In this document: positions 29,924-64,000 of the stretch, piece by piece
Layout of the letters: each line of letters starts with the position of its first letter
How positions within the stretch are numbered: position 1 is the first letter of the stretch
Assembly: GCA_905250025.1 (NCBI GenBank)
Contig: CAJNOJ010000186.1
Location: forward strand, 1 to 64,000
Reading direction: 5' to 3'
Length of the DNA: 64,000 nucleotides
DNA from: Adineta ricciae
Lineage: Eukaryota; Rotifera; Eurotatoria; Adinetida; Adinetidae
Notes under the pieces: model-generated
What the model was told of the DNA's origin: nothing
Seen by the model: the letters and a program-made list of their open reading frames with translations, nothing else
Database searches by the model: none
Translations under genes and position numbers: made by a program

Positions 29924-31836
29924 CTATGTAGCAGTTTTGTGTAGTGTAGAGTACTTTATCGGACATTTATCACGTAATTTTTCGATACCATCGAGAATTC
30001 CCCGTTGATGCCCTTTATTCTGAATACCATATCCTGAAAGTACTTTATCATCTATGCAATTGAGCAACCAATAACCATCGACGCCGTAGTATTTGAAGAG
30101 TTTGGCATATGTTACATATTCATCGCCGAGTCCTTTGACCCATTCGCATACATCCGCAACAGAATTGAGACGATCATGGAAATAAAGTCCTGGAAGGAAT
30201 GAAATAAGAAATATTTATTGAAGGAACGATCCGCTTACGCTGCGGTTGAAGTTCAAGATTTTTTAAGTCTGATGATTTCGGACGGTAGATACTGGGTGGT
30301 TCATGTACAGTCGGACGTTTTACAGTCGAACTGTTTTCCACAACAGTCTTACCACGAAGTCGAGGACGCTCGTCAGGTACGTCCAAAGTTGAACTGTTTT
30401 CCACAACGGTTTTACCACGAGGTCGAGGACCTTCATCAGATATGTTCGAAGCTAAGCTGTCCTGAACGAAAGAACGACGTCGTGGCCGGGCATCATCTTG
30501 AGGATCGAATAAAGATGGATTGGTCGCCGGTGCCAAGTTCTTTGGTGACCATCGTTGACCTTCGTATGTAAGCCATTTGCTTAAACAGGCGATAAACTGA
30601 TTTGCATAAACTTGTTCCACCCAATGTGAAGGAAGTTTCTTGTAACCGTAATAAGCTCCTGCCAATTGCCCATAGATCGCTGCTGTTGTATCGGTATCGT
30701 CGCCTAGATTAACAGCTGCAAGCACACCTGTTTCAAACGAGTCTTTATCGGACCAAAATGCCCACAATGCGGCTTCCAACGCAGCAACAATATACCCTTT
30801 TCCTCGAATTCCTGCGTCGTAGCCTCGCTCTTTCTTGTATGATCCACTTGCAACACGTAGAACATCTGCATGCAACGGTTTATTTCCAAACCATTCTTTA
30901 TGTTCCTCGCAGAAATTCTCTGAAAGCAGTTGTTTCTTATTCGCACCGCGGACAGCTGCAACGATCAAAGCACCATAATAACGACATGCGTCGTATGCTT
31001 TCTGATCCCCATGTGTAATTTCTCCACTGTGTCCAGAGTATTCAACAGCATAAATCGGATGCTTATAGAAGAATAGTGGCACTGGAGCCAGCCGCATCAG
31101 AGCTCCGTTTCCAGCTACACCTTCTTCACTACATTTGACTTTGAATTGATCAAGAATATCGAGATCCGATTGAAAGTCAACATCTTCGAAAGAAATGTGA
31201 TATTTTTCGGCAAAGTTCCTTTGGCGTCTTTCAAATTCTAATAGAGAATGTTTTGTTGCTGAGCCAATATCAAAACACTTCCCTGTGGAAGACATGTAAC
31301 CCTCCCGAAACCACCATTTGTATCGAACTAATTGATCATACGGATCGTAATCTTGCCGAACTATCAGAGAATTTGCAAGACAAAGCGCCATGGAAGTATC
31401 ATCGGTGAACTGATATATAAATGACAAATCACATTTCACAGATTCTTAAACAACTTATCAAATCGTACCTGCCCTTTAGAAAGTCCCCAAGTACCACCAC
31501 CTTGTAGGTCAGTTACGGGATGTTCTACTAGATATTCGTGAGGACGAAATTCGACGTGAGCACCGAGAGCATCACCCAAGGCCATGCCAACCATTGATCC
31601 GTGAATACGATCGAAGACACTGATGTCAAAGCTTTTCGGAGGATTTTCGAGTAATTTCTCTAATTGATCAGGTTTCATTATTGTTCCATCTGTATTATGT
31701 TGTTTATGAAGCCAAGCTTTTTCTAAGCGAATATTTTGTTAAAGATTCTTCTCATTCTTCAATTGAAAATTTCCTTATCTTTAATACCTGTTTGTCCTTG
31801 AGAAGCAAAAGAACTGTCTGTCGTAGCTGATGCCAT
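29924..31836 (-). CDS. ADP-ribosylglycohydrolase (DraG/ARH type) fused to a C-terminal SAM domain
   Basis: Four exons, 31788-31836, 31469-31722, 30239-31409 and 29924-30189, with introns of 65, 59 and 49 bp; 579 residues. The ARH fold spans residues about 40-330, with GMALGDALGAHVEF near the start, the metal-binding FTDDTS (102-107) and the second Asp cluster GDDTDTTAA. The dinuclear-magnesium family removes ADP-ribose from modified proteins or nucleic acid. A linker contains two imperfect repeats of about 20 residues (RPRGKTVVENSS and RLRGKTVVENSS). The last 85 residues read as a SAM domain (VCEWVKGL..YAKLFKYYGVDGYWLL..GYGIQNKGHQRGIL). A 3' splice site lies 2 bp before the chosen ATG. A SAM fusion to ARH is unusual to my knowledge. 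Confidence 0.88.
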
Positions 31837-40611: not shown

Positions 40612-41835
40612 TTAAGAATAAGGATCTTCCGGATTAATTGATTCGTAGATATCAACAAACTTTTCCAATGCACATTCATGTAATTCGATTTGTATTTCCA
40701 GTGGAGCATTAAATGATCGTTTTTCTTTAATCGATACAACTCGAAAGGCTGTACGCGGCATAATCAACACTTCTTTTTCGTCTGGAAATTCTGATATTTC
40801 GGAAATATCAAATGCAGTGCCAGGATTCTTTATTCTATATTTACAAACTGTTGGATATATTCCCACAGTTTTACAATCTCCATTTATTCTTGCAGATGAT
40901 TTGGTGAAATCCTTGGCCCTGTCCCGATCGGTAGATGTTGATAAAAATGCTTTGTTAACGAGCAATGAACCAACTTTGTATTCACTAATATCTGCACCCA
41001 GCATTATCATACCGCGATAGGCTTTGCCGACGAATGAATATTCTTTGAAAATCGAATGATGAGCTATCAGAGCAGCATATCCACCAGGGCCATGCCAATA
41101 ACTGAAATATTCATCTTGGCTTTCGGCATTGTTTTCTGCGAATTGTACAGAATTGTTGGATGCGAGCGCCATGTTCAACGCGGTGTAAAAACCTGTTTGT
41201 AACGTATATATTTTCACTGCTAGACGAAGATCTTTTTGTTCGATAGCTTGGTCGATTAGATGATAAACCTGATCAATCTTCTTGGCATCTGCAAATTTTT
41301 TGTGAGTGTATTGTTTGATTTCTTGTAAATATAGCACATCGTCATCAGCACAGACATCATCGAACCAGTTCTTGCGAGTTTCCTTGTATTCACTGACACT
41401 TTTAGCAGCAGTTGGATCGATAACATTCCATTCGACTGCTGTTGATAAACTCCCGAACCTTTTTGACTGTGGTGTGCGCTCGAACAGCTTTCTAATTTCG
41501 GGCGTTTTTGCCTCATGGAACGGTGTTAAGTGATATCCATTCTTAATTGTGCGTAGGGCGCCGTGGTCGAGCAAAAGTTTGACTATTTTCTCATGGCCAT
41601 AGAACGAAGCTGCATGTAATGCCGTACTTCCAAGTGGTTCGATTCGATTAATGTCCTCTAACGTTGCTGTTTGCAGAAGTCGTTCAACATCTTCTACTCG
41701 ATTTTCTTTACATGCCAAATACAGGTCACTTAGTGGCGTTGGAAAAGCGGTTGGCGCATTGGATGAAGCTCCGTTCTCTGCGGAGTTGGCAGGACTGGGA
41801 GTTGGAAGGGGTGGATGGCTAATTGGCGCACCCAT
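40612..41835 (-). CDS. Ankyrin-repeat mono-ADP-ribosyltransferase
   Basis: Single-exon gene of 407 residues. A Pro/Ser-rich N-terminus is followed by about two ankyrin repeats (residues 35-120, GSTALHAASFYGHEKIVKLLLDHGA split over two helices). The ART domain covers residues 190-390 with an intact R-S-E triad: Arg274 in KAYRGM, FLSTSTD (298-304) and the ExE pair Glu353/Glu355 in PDEKEVLIMP. No signal peptide, so a cytosolic enzyme that may recruit targets through the ankyrin part. ExE is typical of arginine-directed ARTs. It is divergently arranged with the tyrosine kinase at 42.4 kb, with 590 bp between their starts. Confidence 0.92.
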   Translation of the reverse strand: MGAPISHPPLPTPSPANSAENGASSNAPTAFPTPLSDLYLACKENRVEDVERLLQTATLEDINRIEPLGSTALHAASFYGHEKIVKLLLDHGALRTIKNGYHLTPFHEAKTPEIRKLFERTPQSKRFGSLSTAVEWNVIDPTAAKSVSEYKETRKNWFDDVCADDDVLYLQEIKQYTHKKFADAKKIDQVYHLIDQAIEQKDLRLAVKIYTLQTGFYTALNMALASNNSVQFAENNAESQDEYFSYWHGPGGYAALIAHHSIFKEYSFVGKAYRGMIMLGADISEYKVGSLLVNKAFLSTSTDRDRAKDFTKSSARINGDCKTVGIYPTVCKYRIKNPGTAFDISEISEFPDEKEVLIMPRTAFRVVSIKEKRSFNAPLEIQIELHECALEKFVDIYESINPEDPYS

Positions 41836-42426
41836 GTCAATAGAAGAATAAAATATTCTTTTATCCGTGGAAAATAAATATCTATATACGGGCGATGTGA
41901 CTGATAAGAATTTCTTTTTCGTAGAGTTATATGAAAAGAAAATTCCAAGCGTCGTTTTTGAAAGTCAGATCTTTTAGTGACTCACATCGTTATAAAATGA
42001 TAAGGAGAACGAAAAATAAGAGTTTTATATTCGTTGGTTATCTCGATTCAACATGTCTCTGAGAGAAATATTTTACGTGAAAATAGAAGTATCTACAGAA
42101 TGGGAACAACATTCTTGGAGTATTGTACGACTTGTGTAACTGTTTTTATTGACGACGCTTATCCCTAGCAGACGAGCGAGTGTACTTTGACATAGATGCA
42201 ACATATTTTTCAGAAGGTCTATATCAAAAATTCTTTAGCCTCAGGTTTCGAAAGGTATACTGTCCAATAACCCTAATATACCAACGACAGTTCGGTCAGC
42301 ATATCCTCCGTTGTATCGATAACTCGACATTGAATTTCGTTTTATATCTCTATAGCTGATTCGGCTATTTTACAGGCGATATTATATTTTCCATTATTTG
42401 CAGAGGTACGTTGAATAAATAATTTC
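41836..42426. other. Divergent promoter region between ankyrin-ART and tyrosine kinase
   Basis: No gene seen; both flanking genes start here. Confidence 0.5.
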
Positions 42427-44708: not shown

Positions 44709-47693
44709 TCATTTCTTGGGGGTTCGTTTTGGTTGATTGATCAAACCGATCTGATCGTAAATGTCTCCAATGATTGAGTATGTGTGAGCTATCGGCTGGT
44801 ATTCTGATTTATAAACTTCGATCTGTTTGCCGAGTAGGTTTTCGAAAAAGGCCAACGATTGAAAGTAATCACGCTTTTCCAGAGAGATGTAGGCTAAAAT
44901 ATGGTAAATGTCAAGCGCTGATCTATTGCCATTCTTTTTCTGAAGTAAATCCTGAAAATAAATCAAACTTTGAGCTAAATGTCGTTTGTTAAACTGTGCA
45001 TCGTTTTCGAGTGATTGAATTTTCGTATCTGGGATGTCTCTCGACAGCTTTTTGTCCACATTCTTGTGTGAATTGCTGTCGAAGTAATCTCGTTTCACAT
45101 AAATATTTCCAATCATCGTATAAGTACTCGCGACGGAAGAATGACTATTTCTCTTCGTTTTCAATTGACAATCGAGTAGTCTCCGGAAGTAGATCAATGC
45201 TTTTTCGTAATTACCTTGCTGGAAATAGATTGTCCCGATCGCTCTCAATATATTTTCCAGCGATGGATCGTCGACTGGTCTTCTTTCCAATTGATTCGCT
45301 AATAGACGAAGAAAGTATTCCACTGATCGATCGAAATCCTCTCTCTCGTATGAGATCATTGCTAAAATGTAATAAGTATTCGATAATAGAGATTTTCCTT
45401 TGGGATAGGTCTCAAGCTGCTTGTTGAGAAGGTTCTCAAAGTAGTTTAAAGATAGTTCTAAGTGACGTTTTTCAAAATGGAGATTATCGATGAATCGAGA
45501 ATCGTTCTTCATCTTGTTCTTGTCCATTTTATGATAGTAAAGAATCGTTTTATCAAGTTGCGACTTTTTCAGATAAATTTCTCCGATTGACGCGTAAGTT
45601 TTGTCGATCAACGACTGATCCGTTGGTTTGACTTGGAGATAGCAAGCAACGAGACGGTTGTAATAAACCAATGCTTGGCTTAAGTCGTGTTTCTTCCAAC
45701 AGATTGTACTGAGGGCTTTGTAGAGAAAGGTTAACGATTCATCTTCAGGCAAGTTCGTTTCCAGTTCGTTTTCCAGACATTTCAAAAAGAAATTCAAAGC
45801 ACTATTCAAATCATTTTCATCAGGTTGAACTTGGTATTTATCGAAATGAAGTTCGCCAAGTGTTCTATACGCCACACTCAACGGTGCTTCGCCTTTCTTG
45901 CTTCGTTTCAACTCACTCTCTAGTGCTTTATTGAAATAAGTTGACGCTTGGCTAAAATCTCGTTTCTTTTCCCAGTAAACACGTCCAATGAGGTAGTAAG
46001 TTTCAATCACGGACGGATGATTTGTCGCTAAAGTTTTCAGTTGATTGTCTAATAGTTTATTGTAATAAGAAAGTGCCGTGTCTGGCTGATTCAATTTCAT
46101 GTAGACATCACCGAACTGCCGAAAAGATAGTGCGAAATCGGGATGGTTGGATGGTAGCGTTTGTGATTGTAATTTGTAGGCTTTTTTTAAATATTCTAAG
46201 GCTTTTTGTTGGTCGCCGATTTGAGAGAACATCAGGCCGATTTCTGCGTACGTGTAACTGAGATCTGGGTGATCCGGAGAGAGTTCTTTACTTTGTGTTT
46301 CTAAAGCTTTATCGAACATTTTTGTTGCTTCTTCCTTTCTGTTCATCAAAACATGGAGCTTTCCCATATTAATGTATGTTTTGACAATCGAGACGAGATC
46401 TGTTTGGAGCAGATTCTGAAGAGATTTCTCCAAGAATTCGAATGCAACACAATAATTCTTCATTTGAAAATGAACTTCCGACAAGCCGGCATAAGTAGTG
46501 GACGGAACGTTATTTTTCGTTTGCAAAGCTTTATCAAAATATTCGAATGCAATCTTATAATCACCTCGACCACAATGTGCTAATCCCAAATCATTGTAAC
46601 ATATTGCAATCAGTGGATCGTCATTCGATAAACAATTCAGCGCTTGATTGAGATTTTCTATCGATAGTTTCAAGTTTCCTTGTTTTTCATTCACTTTTGC
46701 AAGTCCATGGTAGCAAAACGCACGCTCGAGATCGGTTATGGCTGCGTTTTGTTTTAAGATTTTCTCGAAGTGTTTCCGAGCATCGTCGTAGCGAAGCATG
46801 TCTATGAAATTGTATCCAATTGCAATCGACTGATTCTGTCCTTTGCTTTGATCGCTCAATGAGGACGAAAACTTTTTCATATCTGGATCTTCTTCTGAAC
46901 ATAGAGTTAAATTCGCCATCCAAAGTTTGTTTTGTTCGTCGTAAACGATATTATCAATGCGAAAAACGCAGCCGAGCATGAAGAGTATTTCCTCTTCTTC
47001 AGGAAATGCACTTAAGGTTCGAATGTCTGCAAATGGTTTTGATTTCGCATTTAAATTTACGTGTATTTCTAACAGAATCGATGTTAGCGTGTCATTTGGC
47101 GGCGGACGACTCGTAGCAAATTCCAAAGCTTTCTTTCTGTTTGTACTCGTAGACAGAAACGAATTCATCGCGATCAATTGTCCAATACCGGACTTTAGAC
47201 GGTTAACTTCATCCTTACTGATAAACTGTCCACGATAGACTTTAATAAATGGTTTCGATTGTTGTTTAACAAATATTTTCCGTTGTTCAGCTAATTGCAC
47301 ATTCAAATCGCGTATAAATGAGTCGAATGGATTGACATCATCAATGTTTTGTGTTCGTAAAGCTTTGTTCAAAATTTTGTAAATACAACTTTCTCTCGTA
47401 TACCAATGAATAGCTTTTTCGGGTTTGTAACTCTTGTCGAATTCATTCATAATTTTGTTGTCATCGACATCGTCTGGTTCGAAGTATTCGACTAGTGCTG
47501 ATTCCTCGCTTAGTGATGACTGATTTTCATCCAAGATTTGATTGAGTAATGATTGATAAAGGAAAAATTCTCCATTTAAAGATTTATGCATGCTTTTATC
47601 ATCTTTGGCTGAATAAACATTGGTGCCCATTGAATCGACACGATCATTGGAGCTGCCGATTGTGTTCTGTTTTCGTCGTGGGGTGCGAGTCAT
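44709..47693 (-). CDS. Mono-ADP-ribosyltransferase with C-terminal tetratricopeptide repeats
   Basis: Single-exon gene of 994 residues. The ART domain (about 85-265) has Arg154 in VYRGQF, FLSTSTNR (179-186) and the ExE pair Glu233/Glu235 in PEEEEILFML. From about residue 290 to 985 there are around sixteen TPR units of kinesin-light-chain/NPHP3 type, about 42 residues each (for example HPDLSYTYAEIGLMFSQIGD and DQQKALEYLKKAYKLQ). The ART probably modifies proteins held by the TPR solenoid. Similar ART-TPR proteins are abundant in bdelloid rotifers. It converges on the tyrosine kinase with 185 bp between stops. The central repeats are less regular, with some helices lengthened. Confidence 0.92.
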   Translation of the reverse strand: MTRTPRRKQNTIGSSNDRVDSMGTNVYSAKDDKSMHKSLNGEFFLYQSLLNQILDENQSSLSEESALVEYFEPDDVDDNKIMNEFDKSYKPEKAIHWYTRESCIYKILNKALRTQNIDDVNPFDSFIRDLNVQLAEQRKIFVKQQSKPFIKVYRGQFISKDEVNRLKSGIGQLIAMNSFLSTSTNRKKALEFATSRPPPNDTLTSILLEIHVNLNAKSKPFADIRTLSAFPEEEEILFMLGCVFRIDNIVYDEQNKLWMANLTLCSEEDPDMKKFSSSLSDQSKGQNQSIAIGYNFIDMLRYDDARKHFEKILKQNAAITDLERAFCYHGLAKVNEKQGNLKLSIENLNQALNCLSNDDPLIAICYNDLGLAHCGRGDYKIAFEYFDKALQTKNNVPSTTYAGLSEVHFQMKNYCVAFEFLEKSLQNLLQTDLVSIVKTYINMGKLHVLMNRKEEATKMFDKALETQSKELSPDHPDLSYTYAEIGLMFSQIGDQQKALEYLKKAYKLQSQTLPSNHPDFALSFRQFGDVYMKLNQPDTALSYYNKLLDNQLKTLATNHPSVIETYYLIGRVYWEKKRDFSQASTYFNKALESELKRSKKGEAPLSVAYRTLGELHFDKYQVQPDENDLNSALNFFLKCLENELETNLPEDESLTFLYKALSTICWKKHDLSQALVYYNRLVACYLQVKPTDQSLIDKTYASIGEIYLKKSQLDKTILYYHKMDKNKMKNDSRFIDNLHFEKRHLELSLNYFENLLNKQLETYPKGKSLLSNTYYILAMISYEREDFDRSVEYFLRLLANQLERRPVDDPSLENILRAIGTIYFQQGNYEKALIYFRRLLDCQLKTKRNSHSSVASTYTMIGNIYVKRDYFDSNSHKNVDKKLSRDIPDTKIQSLENDAQFNKRHLAQSLIYFQDLLQKKNGNRSALDIYHILAYISLEKRDYFQSLAFFENLLGKQIEVYKSEYQPIAHTYSIIGDIYDQIGLINQPKRTPKK

Positions 47694-49433
47694 CTTATAA
47701 TAGAAGATTTGCTAAATAATAGAAATGATCATTCGTTCATTCCATTCTTTATAGATATTTTAGGTCAGTGATTGTCTCGAAAATTGACTCGTCCGACTGA
47801 TTCCGATCTCACGAGTTCAATTAAAAGCTCGCAATTACGAAATGTTTCATTATCGTGTGACTTCACACTAAAAATCTGATATCGAATGGAATGCTACAAA
47901 ATGTCCAATAAGTACGAACAGAATCTTAAGTGGGAGGTCTCATATGTGGCAATGACATTCGAGAAAGTGTGTGTACTTTCATTCTCTCGATCAATATGTT
48001 TTCTACAAATGAAAACATGTGATGACAATCACTGAAATCAATTCAATCGTACATCTATTGAAGGGAGTAGAAAAGTAACTAACTCAGCGACTCTCAAATG
48101 AATGTGTGATAAAACGCGTTCTAATAGATTAAAACTAATGAACATTTATTCCGCGTGTACTGTATAAACTAAGTAATATTCGAACTTCATCTGACTCAAA
48201 TCAAAACGCATCCAATCACCCTCACACTTATTACCTGTTATTAATGATGGAAGCACGAAAACGAAAGAAGCAATTTGAATCAATATGAATATAGAGCATA
48301 TACGTATATATATACGTACTGGCATGTTTGACTCTTCGTTTTCGATCAATTAGTAGTGTATTTTCTTCATATGAAATATTAAGATAGTTACATTAATCAC
48401 ACAGCCTATATATTCGAATACCTTGCAAAGCAAATAGCATTGACGAAATAGTATAAACACCAACACGATACTGAATAATATTATGCTGCATTGCTTTTTC
48501 GTTTATGTGTAAGCGTGCATAATTTTGTAGAACGAAAATATGTCCTGCCGTTGTCGATTTGCGTGACAAATGATAATAAATTAATGTTGACGGCTTTATC
48601 ACAATTACTACTTTTCTGCTGATACCATCTTTGACAGAAGCAGCGAGATATAAGAAGAGGAAATGCTTAGTGCATAACTCTACACAGATATACTATTGTA
48701 CACGATTTCATTGAAAGTATGGCGTTCTTGAATGTCTTCGGTATATCGAGAAGCCTTCTCGACGGACAGTGATTATATCTTGTTCCTTACTTTCTTTGAC
48801 AAAAGATTTGGATTCTGTTACTATTGATTGATGATAGTGTTAAATTGTACGCAAAGTACAATGCGTTTGATCTTTTCTAACATTATATCATATCAATATT
48901 TTGTGGTAGTGTATGAAAAGATAGGGCAAAACTATGAATAATATGATTGGTCCATAAGATATACCTGTATGACGTGCACATTACTTTATTTGTAAAAAAC
49001 AACAACAGAATACAACCATTCATATTGATTACTTTTACTTATTATATCGGGTTACGTGTGTGAAGTGTTATGTATGAACTATTGTCTTCGAAGCATTCAA
49101 TAGAACATATTGGAACTAATGAACATGTACACTCTACCTATATGATAAACATTCGTTCTTTGTTTTTCTCAATACAGCGAAGTATCCACCATGCGGCTGG
49201 AAATATCATACAAATAAGAATTAGTGTTGACAATTTTGGTATTTCATATAGCATTATTTCAATGCAATCGCAAACGAATTAGCGACAAAAGCTTTATATC
49301 ATCAAATGACCTTGATTTTCTATATTATTTTGAAAATCCTCTGTTCTGGATTAAAATGAACACGAAGCATTATATACAATCCCAACACCGATAATGTTCT
49401 TGTTACAACATTTATGATTCGTCAATAGTCACT
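47694..49433. other. 1.7-kb region without recognisable genes
   Basis: AT-rich; only short frames without domains on either strand. The ART-TPR promoter must lie at the left end. Confidence 0.45.
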
Positions 49434-56702: not shown

Positions 56703-59700
56703 TTAGTTGTTTAGTGATACTGGTTGTTCGTAAGAGAAAAAGCATAATGTGTTGTTGCGCAGTGATTTTCGATTACAATCGTCTTGTACTCCATTCCAAA
56801 CAAATTTTAGCGGAAGATCGGTCGCAGGACGAGTTTTTAAAGCTTTTCTTGGTCGAGCATCACTGGAAAACGGACACGGAGTGAATATGGCGGTTAGATT
56901 GATTTTTGTTTTCTCTTTTGCCAGATTTCTTGACTGGGGTTTATACTCTCGACATACCTTTTCGAAGATAATCCAGCTCTGCCTCATGCGTTTGGCAAAT
57001 TCGGATTGATATTTCTTGAGTTGCTCCTTAGAGTACGAAGAGCCACGTTGATCGTTCTTACCTTGAGATTTGGAACCGCGTGCTATATTCTTTTTCGGTT
57101 CACGGTCGCGCTTCGAGTCTTCAACCTTTTCCTTTTTGAGTTTGGGACCGACTGAGTCTTTGTGTGTCTTTTCACCTTTAGAATTCTTTAATTTATCGCT
57201 CTTCGCTGCTTTTCTAGCTGATTCTCTCAAATCTCTTTTCGTGTTTGGTAACAGATTCCATATCCAAGAATCTGGACTGACGCGGCCCGACAAATAGCTA
57301 TTTTGCAGTACGACATCAAGCACTGGAAATGGCGCATCATTAATATCGCCTGTGTACGTAAATGGATGAAGATTTAGTTTCGATAGTTTCTGCATAATTC
57401 CATCGATCCATTGTTTTAGCGACGATATGCCAAAATCATAGCGCACCATCTCGAGAACAATAGCACGTCGTTGTTCGTATTCTGGATCACTTGTATCAGC
57501 CGCTCGTGGCAGGAAAAAGGATCTATGATGTGCATTTTCCAGTAGATTTTCTCTCTCTTCGATCATGTCTTGAACATCTTTGATAAGATCTCGTCTTTCT
57601 TTGTCCTGTATTCTTCCTCTCTTGAACTTCATCAATTTCTGTGAATATTCTTCATAGATCGATCTGCGCTGCTTTGGAATTAATAGAAAATTCAAATGTG
57701 GATCCTTTCGAACATACTCCAAAACCGAATCTTCTCGTTGTTGACTCGATCTGATATTCTGGAACTATGAAACAATTCCAAGTTTACACTAACAACAAAA
57801 TTCTAAGAAGATCTACTTACAATTTTCAATAATAGCCTATCGAATTGTAAATTGAAATACTCCCGTGATCCGAAGAACGAGAAACAAGTCTCTTGATCTA
57901 TTATTTGCCGTAACGATCTGATCGGTTGACAGTATTCCACTTTAATTGGTATAATACTTTTGTGCTTTTCATAAGCACATCTAGCTTCGTCAATACAATT
58001 TTGATCTCGAAAATAATTTTCGCTTAAGCACAAGATAACTAAATTCGATCGTTCAATTTTTGATGAACTCTTGTCAGAAGAATCAGATCGCATCCAAACA
58101 AAAAAGCCTTCGTTGACCAGATGTGTTCGTAACTGTTCACATACTCTCGAATCTTCGAGCGCATAACTCAACACTATTTTGAAATTGTTCATAGCATTTG
58201 CAATTCGATTCTCCTCTGTTGACCCCCGAATTCGCATCAAGACATGGGTCAACCGATATTTTTCATAAGCTTGATTAACGTTAGTTATCGGACCAAACAA
58301 AACAAGTTGTTCGTGTTCATTCATTTGTGGTAGCACTGATATTTGACGACAGTATGAATAAAATCCGTTGATTGCATCTTGGTCCCATTCAGTGAAATCA
58401 TAGACTGTTCGACTACACATCGATCGTTCTAAGTAATGATTGATTTTCTGTTCACATTGAGTTAGATGCTGCTTGTTCGATGCAATCAGAGTAACAGTCG
58501 CTGCTGCAATAAAATAAATGATCAAAAAGCAGTGATTTTCTATATGAGTGCTGTAACTAGTCCTTACTTGACGTGGGACAGTAAAAATATCCGCAAGTTT
58601 TATCGTCAGTTTGGAGAGGCTGAACAATCTTCACAAAATGTTTGTATAGATTTTGTTGGTCTGGTAAAAATATGAAAGATACGTTGAGTAAAGTGGAATT
58701 GACTTGTCGAATGTGACAGAGAGTTTCATCGATCATCTCTTCGGCAATAGTTTGTTCATTATGAATTGAATCGGGCATGACAATTGCAATCGATAATGTC
58801 TCACGATTCGACCGTCTTTCAGCTTTGAGTATGTACTGAATCACATGAGACACAAACGTTCGAACGGATTCGCATAAGAGATCTTCATCGATCGACTTTC
58901 CAGGCAACGACCAATTAACGAAGAGAATCTTCTTGCAATTTAATCTTCCTGCGCTTGTTTCGGTGATAAATGGCATGGACTCGTCCTGATGTCTTCGATT
59001 AGATTTTGAAGGTTGTTCCTCTATATGACCTGCTCGCTCGATTAAGTGTTCTTTCAATCCTGAAGTCAGCGACGGAATGATAAAGACATCCGCCTAGAAT
59101 TGTATGTCATAGTCAGAGAATCTTTTAATGTTTTCCTATGCTTACTTGTTGGTCTGTGATGTCTGCAATTGAGACGGTTATAGCTCCTCTTTCAAATTTG
59201 GCTTCACATGCAAAGAATGGCAACGGAGCGGTTGACTCGTGTGTTAACGCAAGAAGTGCAGATTTCCCGGTCGATCTGCGCAACATTGGAAACGATCGGA
59301 AGTTTTTCTTCAGTTTAAATTTGCAATAACAATGACTGTTCTTTGCGAGGTATTCTATATGAGACATGGCCTTTTCCGCAATGTCATAGTAGAAACCATG
59401 TGTGTCAATGACAAGTCGATTGAAACTAGATAGCACAGTTTTTAGTCGAGATTCGACATCATTTGAGAGATAGGGTGGAGCGTAGAATACACGTCTTTCC
59501 AAATCGATTCTCACGCCAGAACTATTCAAATCTTTCTGGGTCATTTTCACTGCATTCGAACCAATTTGAATCAAACAATCGATCTAAACATGCGTAGTTC
59601 TCAAAAAATAAGGCCTTCAAAGAAATGGGAACATACTTCTGTTGTCGACAATTGACTGAATTTGTATTTATTCACTCGATATTTTCGAAATAAACTTTCG

Positions 59701-61181
59701 ACTTTAGATAGAAAGGAATTAACCATGTTTTTCTTTCCGAATATATCGATAACAGTTTGATCTGACCGCCTGATAGAGTTGCTCTTGGTAATTGTCACGA
59801 ATGTTTTGTTTTTCTGTTGGAATTTGGCGATTAAGTCATCGAATTCCATCTGATATTCTTTCCTTGCATAGATTTTCTCCTGTTGAATGATTCTGCAAGA
59901 GTCCACATCGAAATATTCAACTAGAAGGGAACTATCTATCTTGGAAAGAAACAATCTCTCTTGAGAAATGTGATTTTCAATAATATCATCGATCTCAGCA
60001 ATTCGATGAGAATTATTGAATTCATCATCATCAAAATAGACTATTTCTAACACTGCTGCATTTGTTTTATGCTGAAATGGAAGTGAAACATAAACATATC
60101 AAATTTGCTTTCCAGATTGAGCATACCGCTTTTGCTGGGATCGTGCTTATCCGACATATTGTGAACATTTGACATTCGTGATCGAGAATACGTTGCAGAA
60201 TGGAAAGAGCTGATGCATGGGAAAGACATTTCTTGACTATAAAGGGCTAAATATAGGTGGTAGGTGACATTTTGATGTTAACACTTTACCCTTTTGTTGT
60301 TTGTATGTTCGAATCTGCACTGTTTGAAATAATTTTTCGATGAAGTTGACAACTGTCTGGTATTGCTCTTCTGTTGCAGTGAAGTGAAGAACAAATTTCG
60401 TTGATGAGATTGCATCACCACACAATGCTTTTTTAACATCAATTGGGATGCTAATGGTTTTCTCTTTGACATATCCGAGGACATACGAAACAAACGATTG
60501 ATTTTCAAAGAATTGAGTCAGGTCGGTGTTATCAATCGGATACTCGTACTGACTCTTCTGATGTCCATTCTATATACAAATTGACATCTTGAAAATAAAA
60601 GTTTCCAAATAGAACTTACATGACCATTTTCATTTGGTTGAGATTGATGCGAACTCCTGATTGATGATGAATCACTCTCTTGTCTGAATAATAAAAGGAC
60701 ACTAGCCAAGTTATTAACAATTTAGTATGTTTTTACTAACTCATGCTTGGTCTTGCTTAGTTTTTGTTTGATCGGGAAGGAAGATGATGGATCAGGGTTT
60801 TTCGAGCTTGACCGTTTCTTTTTGTCTTTAATGATTACTGTTGTCGGTTGATTCTCATCATGCTGTGATGGTATTTTCGAATTCGCTTTTAGTTTTTTCA
60901 ACTCCCTCAGTTTTTCACGGAATCGGCTTTGAGCTCCAATAGTAGGTTTCACAGTTGTGCCATCATCAGCAAATTCAGAGAGTGCGTCCACGATCTGTTC
61001 GTCGGTTAAAGCTATCAGAGCGTTGCCATTTATATTCAGCTCTAATTAATAGATGAAATGATTGCAATCGGTGATCGCCAAATGAAAAAAAGCTTACTTT
61101 ACCTTGAAATCTTTTCATGTATCTCTTGAATCCATTCTCTTTCAACCAGCGATTGACTTGGCCTACGGTCCAGTTAGCCAT
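56703..61181 (-). CDS. SAM / KH-like / degenerate macrodomain / TIR protein
   Basis: Ten exons: 61103-61181, 60741-61041, 60620-60683, 60290-60569, 60127-60246, 59637-60055, 59146-59583, 58568-59093, 57821-58503 and 56703-57764; phases agree throughout and give 1323 residues. Order of parts: SAM domain (1-65, WTVGQVNRWLKENGF); basic Ser-rich linker; KH-like segments (about 150-240 and 285-530) of the type seen in PARP14-like proteins; a macrodomain-like region (about 540-740, ITVSIADITDQQADVFIIPS, later TSAGRLNCKK) that lacks the NAAN and Gly-rich ADP-ribose loops; a TIR domain (about 850-970, KIVLSYALED..GFFVWM..IIPIKVEY) with Glu915 where NAD-cleaving TIRs have the catalytic Glu; and a Lys-rich C-terminal region. 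Likely an NAD+-linked innate-immune or stress signalling protein; inference. Confidence 0.8.
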
Positions 61182-62031
61182 AACCTATCGCGTAAAAATG
61201 TTTATTAACCTGAAATGAAAGAAATCTGAGTGAGGATGTAGTGCACTGCAAAGCAACTGAATTTTTGTTGTTTCATTCTCCAATGATTAAGAGTTCTCTC
61301 TTAGACATATTATTCGCATGGTTTTTTCCAACTTGTCACTATTATTCCGCACAAAAATTCAATAAAAAAATTTCAATCATAAAATTTTGTTATATTCCTC
61401 GTTCGCTTCTTGTCAAATAAACTTTCAATCAAGCAAAAACACACCACTTTCCATATGCCAGTGATTTATTGTTATTGCTTCCTACTCTCTCTACTTGGTA
61501 AATTTTCGATCGGCAAATAGAAATTTGTTATTACTTTTCTTCGCTACATCTGCTTTTTTACGACACTCAAAAGAAATTCATTCCGAGAAGAGTACAGCGT
61601 AGAGAAGTGATTGAAAGCAAGTACAAATAAACTGTAGTATGTAAATACTTCACTCTATTTCAAACGAGCCCGACAAACACTTTTCATCACAAATTGCCAG
61701 AACAAAATTTTATACAAATACTTACGTACCACAATCCAAAGACTAAACTACGAGGTAGGGCTTATACTGATGAAACTGAATCGAATTATACTCCTCTTCG
61801 ACGTTGTAATCAATCCATGATTTACGGCGAAAATATGCAACATAAGTGTTTGATTCCCGTGTGATAAAAATCTTATGTTACATATTTACTGAGTACATAT
61901 ATGCATGTGAAACTCCATTTGATTATGATACGAAAACTTTTGTTGAAAGATGTATCTAATCGGAGGTCACTGAAGTATAATTCTTCACACGCTCTCAAAT
62001 ACAATTCTAATTATGATTTGTAGATTGATCA
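61182..62031. other. Shared divergent promoter region of the SAM-domain gene pair
   Basis: 850 bp between two head-to-head paralogues. No gene seen. The orphan 3' splice site at 62022-62023, 8 bp before the plus-strand ATG, suggests trans-splicing of that mRNA. Confidence 0.5.
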
Positions 62032-64000
62032 ATGGCGAGCTGGACTTTAGAAGAAGTGCTCGAATGGTTGGAAACCAATGGTTTTGAACGGTATACACAA
62101 ACTTTTATAAGTAAGTTACTTCGGTTATACTGTCATATTTGACTTCGTTACTATAGATGAAGATATTGACGGCGCAGCATTGCTGGGGTTGTGTGAAGAT
62201 GATATTGTGAAATTGCTCGCGACGGTCGACGAAAACGGAAGAAGACGAAATGCAACGCTGAGAACACGACGGAAGTTTTTGGCTAAGTTGGAAGAATGTA
62301 AATCGCTTGCCAATGAGAAGCAGAGTCAGCAAAGATTCCAAAATAAGTAATTAACTAATTGATTGATTGCTGATCACTCTCTATAATGTTATCTTTCTCC
62401 ACAGCGGAATGGTAAATGGAATATTGCACACAACTATGAGCAACAAGGAACACAGGTACTTAGTAAAATAGAGATTTAAAAGCTTGTTTTTTCCCCCCAA
62501 GGCATGAAATATCATTCTGATACTCTAGTTCATTTCCTCAATCCACCGGCAAAACAACTGATGATTCGAAATCATACTCCAAATTACTCATTGTTGATTC
62601 GGCAAGTACAACAATGAAGTTTTTTCGGAGTGAATTGATCTGTGAGTATTTAACAAATTATTTATCAACAACCTTTGATGTCAAGTGCGACATCCCCATA
62701 ATCACTCTTCCCGTTCCAACGAACGACTTATCCGTTCGACTATTTGGCATGCAACAAAATGTACTAACTGCTTACAGTAATCTCCGATCATTGTTCACTA
62801 CAATATGCACTCGAGTTTTCAATGAAGAAAACACAAACCCAAAAGGTTAGTAGATCATCAGTACATTCACAAAGAATCCATGTCGTTTGTTTCATCCTAC
62901 AGTAATCAGATGGTCCAAGAATATTTATTGTGATTCAGCTGTTGTTGTCTTGCAAAAAATCTTCCTCGGCAAGCGCATCTTGACTGTATGGGAGAAAACT
63001 AGTCTTCTATCTGGGTACTACATCGTGTATTACCTTTCTGGAAGTCAAGAAGCCAGTGTCATCGAAAACTCCATCGAACATGCTTTAAATCATGAGATAT
63101 CTTTCGTCAAAGATATAATCGTATCGAATGTTCGCGGAAAGTATCAGAGTGAATTGAATGAATTCGTCAATAGCCGGAAAAACGAGCAGCGAACAAGTCA
63201 ACCCATGACTATCATTTCCTATCAGTCTCCATTTCAAACAGATATGAAAATTAGTCTTTTCGGTATGAAAGAAACGGTTCACGTGGTAAAGAAACAGTTA
63301 AAACTACTCGTACATAAACATCAGACAAAAACAACAGTACTCAATCTGGATTCGCAACAGGTAGGATACAATGAAAGCATTGTGACAGTCAATATAATGC
63401 TTCTGGTTTTAGCGTGAATATCTATTGAACAACTGCGGTTCTTCTTTGAAACAAATTGAGTTAAATTATGAAGAAGACAATGTGAAAATACAAATTCGTG
63501 AAGATTCGTTCATTTCGCCTCAATATCTTGTGAAAATCATCAAACAATTGATTCAGTCGATGATTTTTCAAACAGTCAATCTAACTTTTAAATCCCTCGA
63601 AAATGTATTTCACTTGACCGATCAAGATCGTTTACAGTTACATGGCCTAGCCAGAAATCACAACTGTGAAATCGATAATATTCTAGTAGATACGCAAGAA
63701 GAACTTATCAGTTTACCCAAAGGAAAGATTTCAATGAGGTCCGAGAAATCAAGTCAATCCTGCTCGACATTGTTTGTACCAAGAGCTATCTCTATAGCAA
63801 ACAAAACATTAGAAATTCAAAGACCAGATCGTTTCAAAGCTGATGTGATCATACTATCAACTGCCGAGGATTGTGTGCAAAACAAAATCGAACCAAAGGG
63901 TCAGCATGGATACTTTCAAACAAATACAGGTCAGAAGCTTCTCTATCTATCATGGTCGCCTCCTCAAATCAAGCATTACAACAATCAATCAGAAATTCTT
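62032..64000 (+). CDS. SAM / KH-like / degenerate macrodomain protein (3' end outside window)
   Basis: Six exons so far: 62032-62110, 62157-62346, 62405-62455, 62529-62845, 62903-63360 and 63413-64000 (open at the window end), 561 residues visible. Residues 1-80 are a SAM domain (MASWTLEEVLEWLETNGFER). KH-like alpha/beta segments follow (SKLLIVDSAS and the DMKISLFGMKETVHVVKKQL block). The visible end begins a macrodomain-like region (FKADVIILSTAED, then KLLYLSWSPP) parallel to ADVFIIPS and KILFVNWSLP in the minus-strand gene. The first exon is 79 bp ending in phase 1 in both genes, which supports common descent by inverted duplication. Whether a TIR domain follows lies outside the window. Confidence 0.78.

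Follow-up and report, generated by a model that had tools for sequence, protein, structure and literature searches.

A divergent pair of rotifer genes that may join a SAM domain and a PARP14-type frame to a TIR domain

On a 207-kb contig of the rotifer Adineta ricciae (CAJNOJ010000186.1, here C186), the opening 64 kb, which we call the window, carry at their far end two genes, A and B, that run away from one another. Gene A lies on the minus strand (start codon at 61181, end at 56703; 10 exons, 1323 amino acids) and gene B on the plus strand (start codon at 62032, end at C186:66379; 9 exons, 1300 amino acids), their start codons being separated by a spacer of 850 bp (61182-62031). B ends 2.4 kb past the window, which holds its exons 1-5 and part of exon 6 (62032-64000). 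The spliced model of A, open also in a second copy of the locus, has the order SAM, KH-like, degenerate macrodomain, KH-like, TIR and C-terminal extension. Comparison with other genes of the same genome places A and B on a PARP14-type frame, and this is the relationship with which we are mainly concerned.

The gene models, whose exon borders were set by reading the sequence, contain only GT-AG introns, and that of A has one stop codon, at its end. The first exon of each gene (A, 61103-61181, minus; B, 62032-62110, plus) is 79 bp long, ends in phase 1 and encodes the first part of the SAM domain, the remainder of which follows in exon 2 (A, 60741-61041, minus, together with a charged linker; B, 62157-62346, plus). 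Pfam matches above the cut-off are confined in both proteins to SAM_1, SAM_2 and TIR_2: SAM_1 scores 24.5 bits in A (amino acids 3-45) and 29.7 bits in B (cut-off 23), and TIR_2 scores 52 bits in A (amino acids 852-966) and 33.2 bits in B (amino acids 790-874; cut-off 28). The models and Pfam bear out the head-to-head pair with matching SAM exons that an initial annotation of the window had described as starting from one 850-bp region, and the landmarks on which it drew (ADVFIIPS/ADVIILST and KILFVNWSLP/KLLYLSWSPP) do occupy homologous places in A and B. The same annotation gave a TIR domain to the complete gene only; A does carry one, and so does B, beyond the window edge, and the difference appeared true because the window cuts B.

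A PARP14-type frame with a degenerate macrodomain

Genome searches, which covered 130 Mb in 1033 contigs, found 15 matches to the exon of A that holds the macro-like domain (exon 8, 58568-59093, minus). Seven match places outside C186 and contig C132 were read (one each on C353, C252 and C302, two each on C397 and C188); PARP matches follow downstream in all seven, and Pfam Macro lies above its cut-off in each of the three places tested (C353, C302 and C397). These PARP-type genes have the order KH-like, macro, KH-like, WWE and PARP domain, the WWE match of the C353 gene being slightly under the cut-off (20.9 versus 21.1). Pairwise hhalign of a TIR-type macro profile (six rows: A, B, their copies, and A' and B', a related pair on C132) with a PARP-type macro profile (five rows) gave a probability of 99.9% (E 8e-31), and in the PDB the PARP-type profile in turn matched the macrodomains of PARP14 (E 7e-22) and PARP9. 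Direct searches of the PDB found no macrodomain with the TIR-type profile alone and no significant match to the macro exon of A, and Pfam Macro has no match in A, B or A'; the macro homology is thus shown through the PARP-type intermediates. By descent, as judged from these profiles, the domain of A and B is a diverged macrodomain. The FPAIGCG-type loop, which we take to be the ligand loop of the macrodomain, is present in some form in all five PARP-type rows and absent from A, B, A' and B', and neither the TIR-type nor the PARP-type rows have the GG loop that canonical macrodomains carry.

The likeness to the C353 PARP-type gene is not limited to the macrodomain. Amino acids 376-825 of A are collinear with it over 450 amino acids (E 2.6e-27), and it also aligns with A' (E 2.7e-37), B (E 1.5e-13) and B' (E 2.5e-27), these E-values being optimistic because they come from a set of six sequences with no composition correction. 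Genome-wide, the KH-macro part of A' matched the C353 gene over the whole query (E 3.8e-16). A phase-0 intron falls at the same aligned place in all three genes, between STTE and IDCL in A, DSQQ and REYL in B, and ESIQ and INYL in the C353 gene, with which exon 7 of A (59146-59583, minus; a KH-like segment and the first macro strand) is collinear. In B, alignment assigns a KH-like segment followed by the degenerate macrodomain to exon 6 (63413-64000, on to C186:64313, plus). The segment between macrodomain and TIR corresponds to that between macrodomain and WWE/PARP in the PARP-type genes: in B it matches two of them (E 3e-5 and 8e-5), and in A the KH-like part of exon 9 (57821-58503, minus), which also encodes the TIR, aligns with them, the last KH-like segment having no significant match in the PDB. 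Identity between the A/B type and PARP-type genes of the same genome is 20-25%. The relation to PARP14 proposed in the initial annotation is upheld by the macro profiles, the collinear match and the PARP14 and PARP9 matches in the PDB, whereas its term "ADP-ribose module" overstates a macrodomain that Pfam Macro and the PDB search miss.

For the KH-like repeats the results are divided: they are collinear with the same region of the C353 gene, and KH profiles all stay below threshold. No Pfam KH profile has a significant match in A, B, A', B' or two PARP-type genes; the best, KH_PARP14_2 on B', reaches 14.7 bits where the cut-off is 27, and on that protein the unrelated MukF_C reaches 15 bits. 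The label is therefore one of position and of homology to PARP14-type genes, whose proteins carry KH-like repeats. It applies in A to exon 4 (60290-60569, minus; the first such segment, with a weak match to A' at A 158-242, E 0.006, inside a longer A-A' alignment) and, by homology only, to exon 6 (59637-60055, minus), and in B, likewise by homology, to exons 4 and 5 (62529-63360, plus), whose counterpart in B' is the stretch with the sub-threshold KH_PARP14_2 score.

When 33 macro places were examined, a PARP match was found within 1.5 kb downstream at 24, a TIR match at seven and neither at two. The 33 comprise 31 of the 33 places of the A' search (two KH-only exons, of A and its copy, were dropped) and two of the 15 of the A macro search; the effector matches used, selected by contig, were 24 of 125 for PARP and 13 of 140 for TIR, and places differ from genes in that copies and double macrodomains are counted more than once. 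The seven TIR-type places all lie at C186 and C132 and represent four genes and their copies; none has a PARP match within 5 kb downstream, and Pfam finds neither PARP nor WWE in A or B. In terms of this aligned frame, A and B have the predicted TIR domain, followed by a new tail, in the slot of WWE-PARP.

At the two remaining KH-like/macro places, C200:142557-143279 and C16:143957-144670, both on the minus strand, the 5 kb downstream showed no PARP and no TIR match; on reading, the former has an intact macro loop and no recognisable effector. C186, which carries the TIR-type pair, also has a PARP match together with a macro match at C186:202924-203968 (plus).

The TIR domain and the C-terminal extension

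The TIR domain itself is real, the TIR_2 scores being above the cut-off in both genes. Of the 28 rows nearest to A, drawn from 140 TIR_2 matches in the genome, 27 retain the Glu of the C..E motif, A, A' and B' among them; we take this residue to be the catalytic TIR Glu, an assignment that fits the PDB alignments. B is the only row without it, having Val instead in both of its copies (exon 7, past the window end, plus, which encodes a KH-like segment and the TIR). A nine-row TIR profile with A first, made up of four members of the A/B family and five other TIRs or paralogues, matched Cat1 (E 2e-8), Roq1, a TLR, RPS4, MyD88 and C. elegans TIR-1 in the PDB. Cat1, Roq1, RPS4 and TIR-1 are TIRs that cleave NAD+ (NADases), and NADase activity of the TIR of A is plausible. 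PADLOC returned no match for the TIR of A or B and one weak match to ThsB (E 0.005) for gene C, a further TIR gene that follows B, and NCBIfam returned none for the TIR exons of A and gene C.

Downstream of the TIR, exon 10 of A (56703-57764, minus) encodes a C-terminal extension without a Pfam match. Alignment shows in it a motif, PF....D.NDA.F, whose P, F, D, N, D, A and F are invariant in A, A', B and B'. A query with the C-terminal end of A' retrieves A, B and B' with E-values no better than 0.006 to 0.015, and matches C361 over a different part (E 0.02 and 0.08); the C-terminal part of B finds only B and its copy.

A second copy and a second locus

The block at 51994-71711 recurs on the same contig at 78919-98501 with 92.3% DNA identity (89.9% in the spacer). 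When the exon borders of the first copy are transferred to the second, the frames of A and B are open there to the same end, and the three indels between the copies (39 nt in A, 9 and 3 nt in B) are all in frame. The ratio of nonsynonymous to synonymous divergence (dN/dS) between the copies is 0.376 for A (dS 0.122) and 0.325 for B (dS 0.143), and it lies below 1 in all 17 parts of the two genes (range 0.105-0.710), the values being given without a significance test. Open frames, in-frame indels and dN/dS below 1 fit constraint on the proposed spliced form. The second copy is probably allelic: single-N gaps, several with repeated 221-bp flanks (C186:71712 and 98502; C132:12326, 13603, 15601, 18054 and 20506), suggest linearised alternative haplotypes, probably set one after another during assembly, an arrangement that would inflate apparent copy numbers. 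A true tandem duplication of the block is possible, since the 7.2 kb preceding the second copy (71713-78918) have no counterpart in positions 1-52000.

The locus on C132 contains the divergent pair A' and B', in which KH-like, macro, KH-like, TIR and the C-terminal motif follow in this order. Identities over the BLAST alignments are 26% for A-A', 31% for B-B' and 22% for A-B. Gene C (C186:66463-68902), directly downstream of B, has a TIR_2 match of 43.8 bits and an N-terminal part with a sub-threshold ARM match and no clear family; its one homologue outside C186 at E <= 0.001 lies at C132:22846-24060, directly after B'. The order A-B-C is therefore found at both loci at about 30% identity, and has survived large divergence. 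In a TIR tree of 27 of the 28 rows (one was dropped) a branch with support 96/88 sets A, A', B and B' apart, and B groups with B' (98/89); in a macro tree of 11 rows the same four genes lie on one side (96/96), B groups with B' (100/99), and A with A' is not resolved. A single TIR capture before the A/B duplication would be the simplest history.

What the genes may do

Proteins of the PARP14 type are antiviral and attach ADP-ribose to their targets; TIR proteins act as effectors in immunity and can consume NAD+, which the TIR module cuts in many immune systems. We lean, with some reserve, towards reading A and B as chimeric immune-type genes with one N-terminal SAM domain on a PARP14-type frame, in which the WWE and ADP-ribosyltransferase end has been replaced by the TIR and new tail, and whose products would act as a sensor/effector pair. 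According to this scheme the KH-like array and the degenerate macrodomain would recognise non-self or damaged nucleic acid or protein, and the SAM domain (and the TIR) would assemble an oligomer. The TIR of A would then cleave NAD+ or make an ADP-ribose-type signal, and B, encoded on the other side of the spacer, would join as a partner devoid of catalytic activity, its part being to set the threshold or to provide recognition. A would thus perhaps be an NADase and B its regulator. It is doubtful that the case goes further, to an animal immune cassette of three adjacent TIR genes in which the PARP14-type frame has swapped ADP-ribosylation for TIR signalling and a live A and a dead-TIR B are co-expressed from one divergent promoter as an obligate sensor/executor pair, an animal equivalent of plant TIR-NLR pairs assembled from unrelated parts.

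Several results weigh against the chimeric sensor/effector reading. The KH identity consists of homology and one sub-threshold match no better than that of an unrelated family. The TIR of A alone finds only RUN1 in the PDB (E 0.92), and five of the nine rows in the profile that does match the PDB are other TIRs. The grouping of A with A' is weak in the TIR tree (91/46), and the tree program warns of long branches. B' keeps the TIR Glu, from which it follows that an active/dead pairing is not ancestral. Finally, tblastn found no SAM domain at C132, where about 0.2 kb separate the open frames of A' and B'.

This last result bears on how the architecture is to be described, for if no SAM is found at C132 the domain is not a fixed part of it. 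It should be noted that the genome search with Pfam SAM_1 missed the split SAM domains of A and B themselves and is hence no evidence of SAM absence at C132; as a query, the second SAM exon of A found only itself, its copy and, non-significantly, that of B (E 0.45). A SAM exon lies on either side of the spacer, so a single deletion of this central part could take out the two together, and the SAM domain may have been either gained at C186 or lost at C132.

Less probable than the sensor/effector reading, and the most serious of its rivals, is that the architecture is as described and both TIRs are non-enzymatic scaffolds that would signal by TIR-TIR assembly, as in MyD88. The Gly of the BB loop, found in 23 of the 28 TIR rows, is missing from A, A', B, B' and gene C, so that the TIR of A may be inactive, and the scaffold MyD88 is itself among the PDB matches of the nine-row profile; these points also count against an enzymatic A. 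However, A (in both its copies), A' and B' retain Glu at the catalytic position, and the top-scoring PDB matches include NADase TIRs.

The initial annotation also saw in A a kinship with SARM1, and it is indeed the case that SARM1 and C. elegans TIR-1, like A, have SAM and TIR in one chain and Glu at the C..E position, and that the PDB matches of the TIR profile include TIR-1 and, with a lower score, human SARM1. The kinship did not hold up. A and B each have a single, N-terminal SAM domain, in contrast to the two tandem SAM domains of SARM1, and no ARM domain above the Pfam cut-off, the region in question being PARP14-type; the genes are paired; and human SARM1 scores 17 bits with the TIR profile against 30 to 37 for Cat1, Roq1 and RPS4, far from the best match. 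The Glu by which the SARM1 family is recognised is present in A and A' and replaced by Val in B, and no SAM was found at C132. The TIR tree rows included no SARM1 orthologue. It is accordingly improbable that A and B represent an axon/immune NADase of the SARM1 type to which PARP parts have been joined.

Still more improbable is that the models are wrong, or that SAM/KH/macro and TIR belong to separate neighbouring genes. The models do derive from genomic sequence alone, with borders placed by eye, and within them the link from SAM to KH is the least supported junction. Against this, a KH-like segment and the TIR share a single exon in both A and B, as expected of the one chain first proposed; a single open frame covers macro, KH-like and TIR, with 430 amino acids in B' and 429 in the second copy of A; and the indels between the copies preserve the frame. 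Least probable of all is that A and B are decaying relics without function, for although the macro loop and the Glu of B are lost and paralogue identity is low (22 to 31%), the dN/dS below 1 in every part, the lack of a broken frame in two copies and the retained three-gene order speak against it.

The predicted proteins resemble several known systems without coinciding with any of them. They share with PARP14-type proteins the order KH-like, macro, KH-like and one intron in place and phase, and differ from them in the TIR and new tail in place of WWE-PARP, in the N-terminal SAM and in the loss of the FPAIGCG-type loop. Plant TIR-NLR pairs such as RPS4/RRS1 are also encoded by head-to-head genes; the likeness lies in the divergent pair, the TIR in both partners and the possible lack of enzyme activity in one, whereas in A and B no NB-ARC or LRR is found by Pfam, the frame is unrelated and the presumed pairing is read from gene order. 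In bacterial Thoeris a TM-macro protein, ThsA, whose macrodomain binds ADP-ribose, and a TIR protein, ThsB, likewise bring TIR and macrodomain into one defence pathway, as two proteins rather than the single animal chain with a degenerate macrodomain found here (PMC11204291). Fusions of cnidarian TRADD-N proteins to Macro and PARP domains are reported and offer a precedent for shuffling around these domains (PMC8195603). In the open-licence literature searched, part of the text of each source being covered, we found no description of a chain of KH-like, macro and TIR domains (PMC9503650, PMC8195603, PMC12700824 and PMC11204291 included), which is weak evidence of absence; nor, in agreement with the initial annotation, did that literature contain the order SAM, KH-like, macro-like, TIR.

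Other genes linked to NAD+ or ADP-ribose lie nearby. Gene D (C186:69037-71034) encodes a TPR protein, by Pfam on its copy, with a sub-threshold ADP-ribosyltransferase match (12.6 bits versus a cut-off of 22.3), and its N-terminal 321 amino acids belong to a very large family (at least 124 genome matches, 124 of 908 candidates having been scored). Within the window, an ADP-ribosylglycohydrolase (PF03747, 202 bits) lies at 29927-31445 (minus) and is followed immediately downstream by a SAM exon (SAM_2, 30.2 bits) that is possibly part of the same gene, and an ankyrin-ADP-ribosyltransferase gene and an ADP-ribosyltransferase-TPR gene lie at 40615-41964 and 44709-47711 (both minus). C186 is rich in such genes, yet they are very numerous genome-wide.

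Because a TIR occupies the PARP-domain slot, the KH-like/macro part may be an independent recognition unit, and our comparison suggests that it could take different NAD+-using effectors. The question of what the PARP14 frame binds could then be approached by comparing the binding of PARP-ended and TIR-ended versions, and the conserved order A-B-C provides a defined set of genes to study together.

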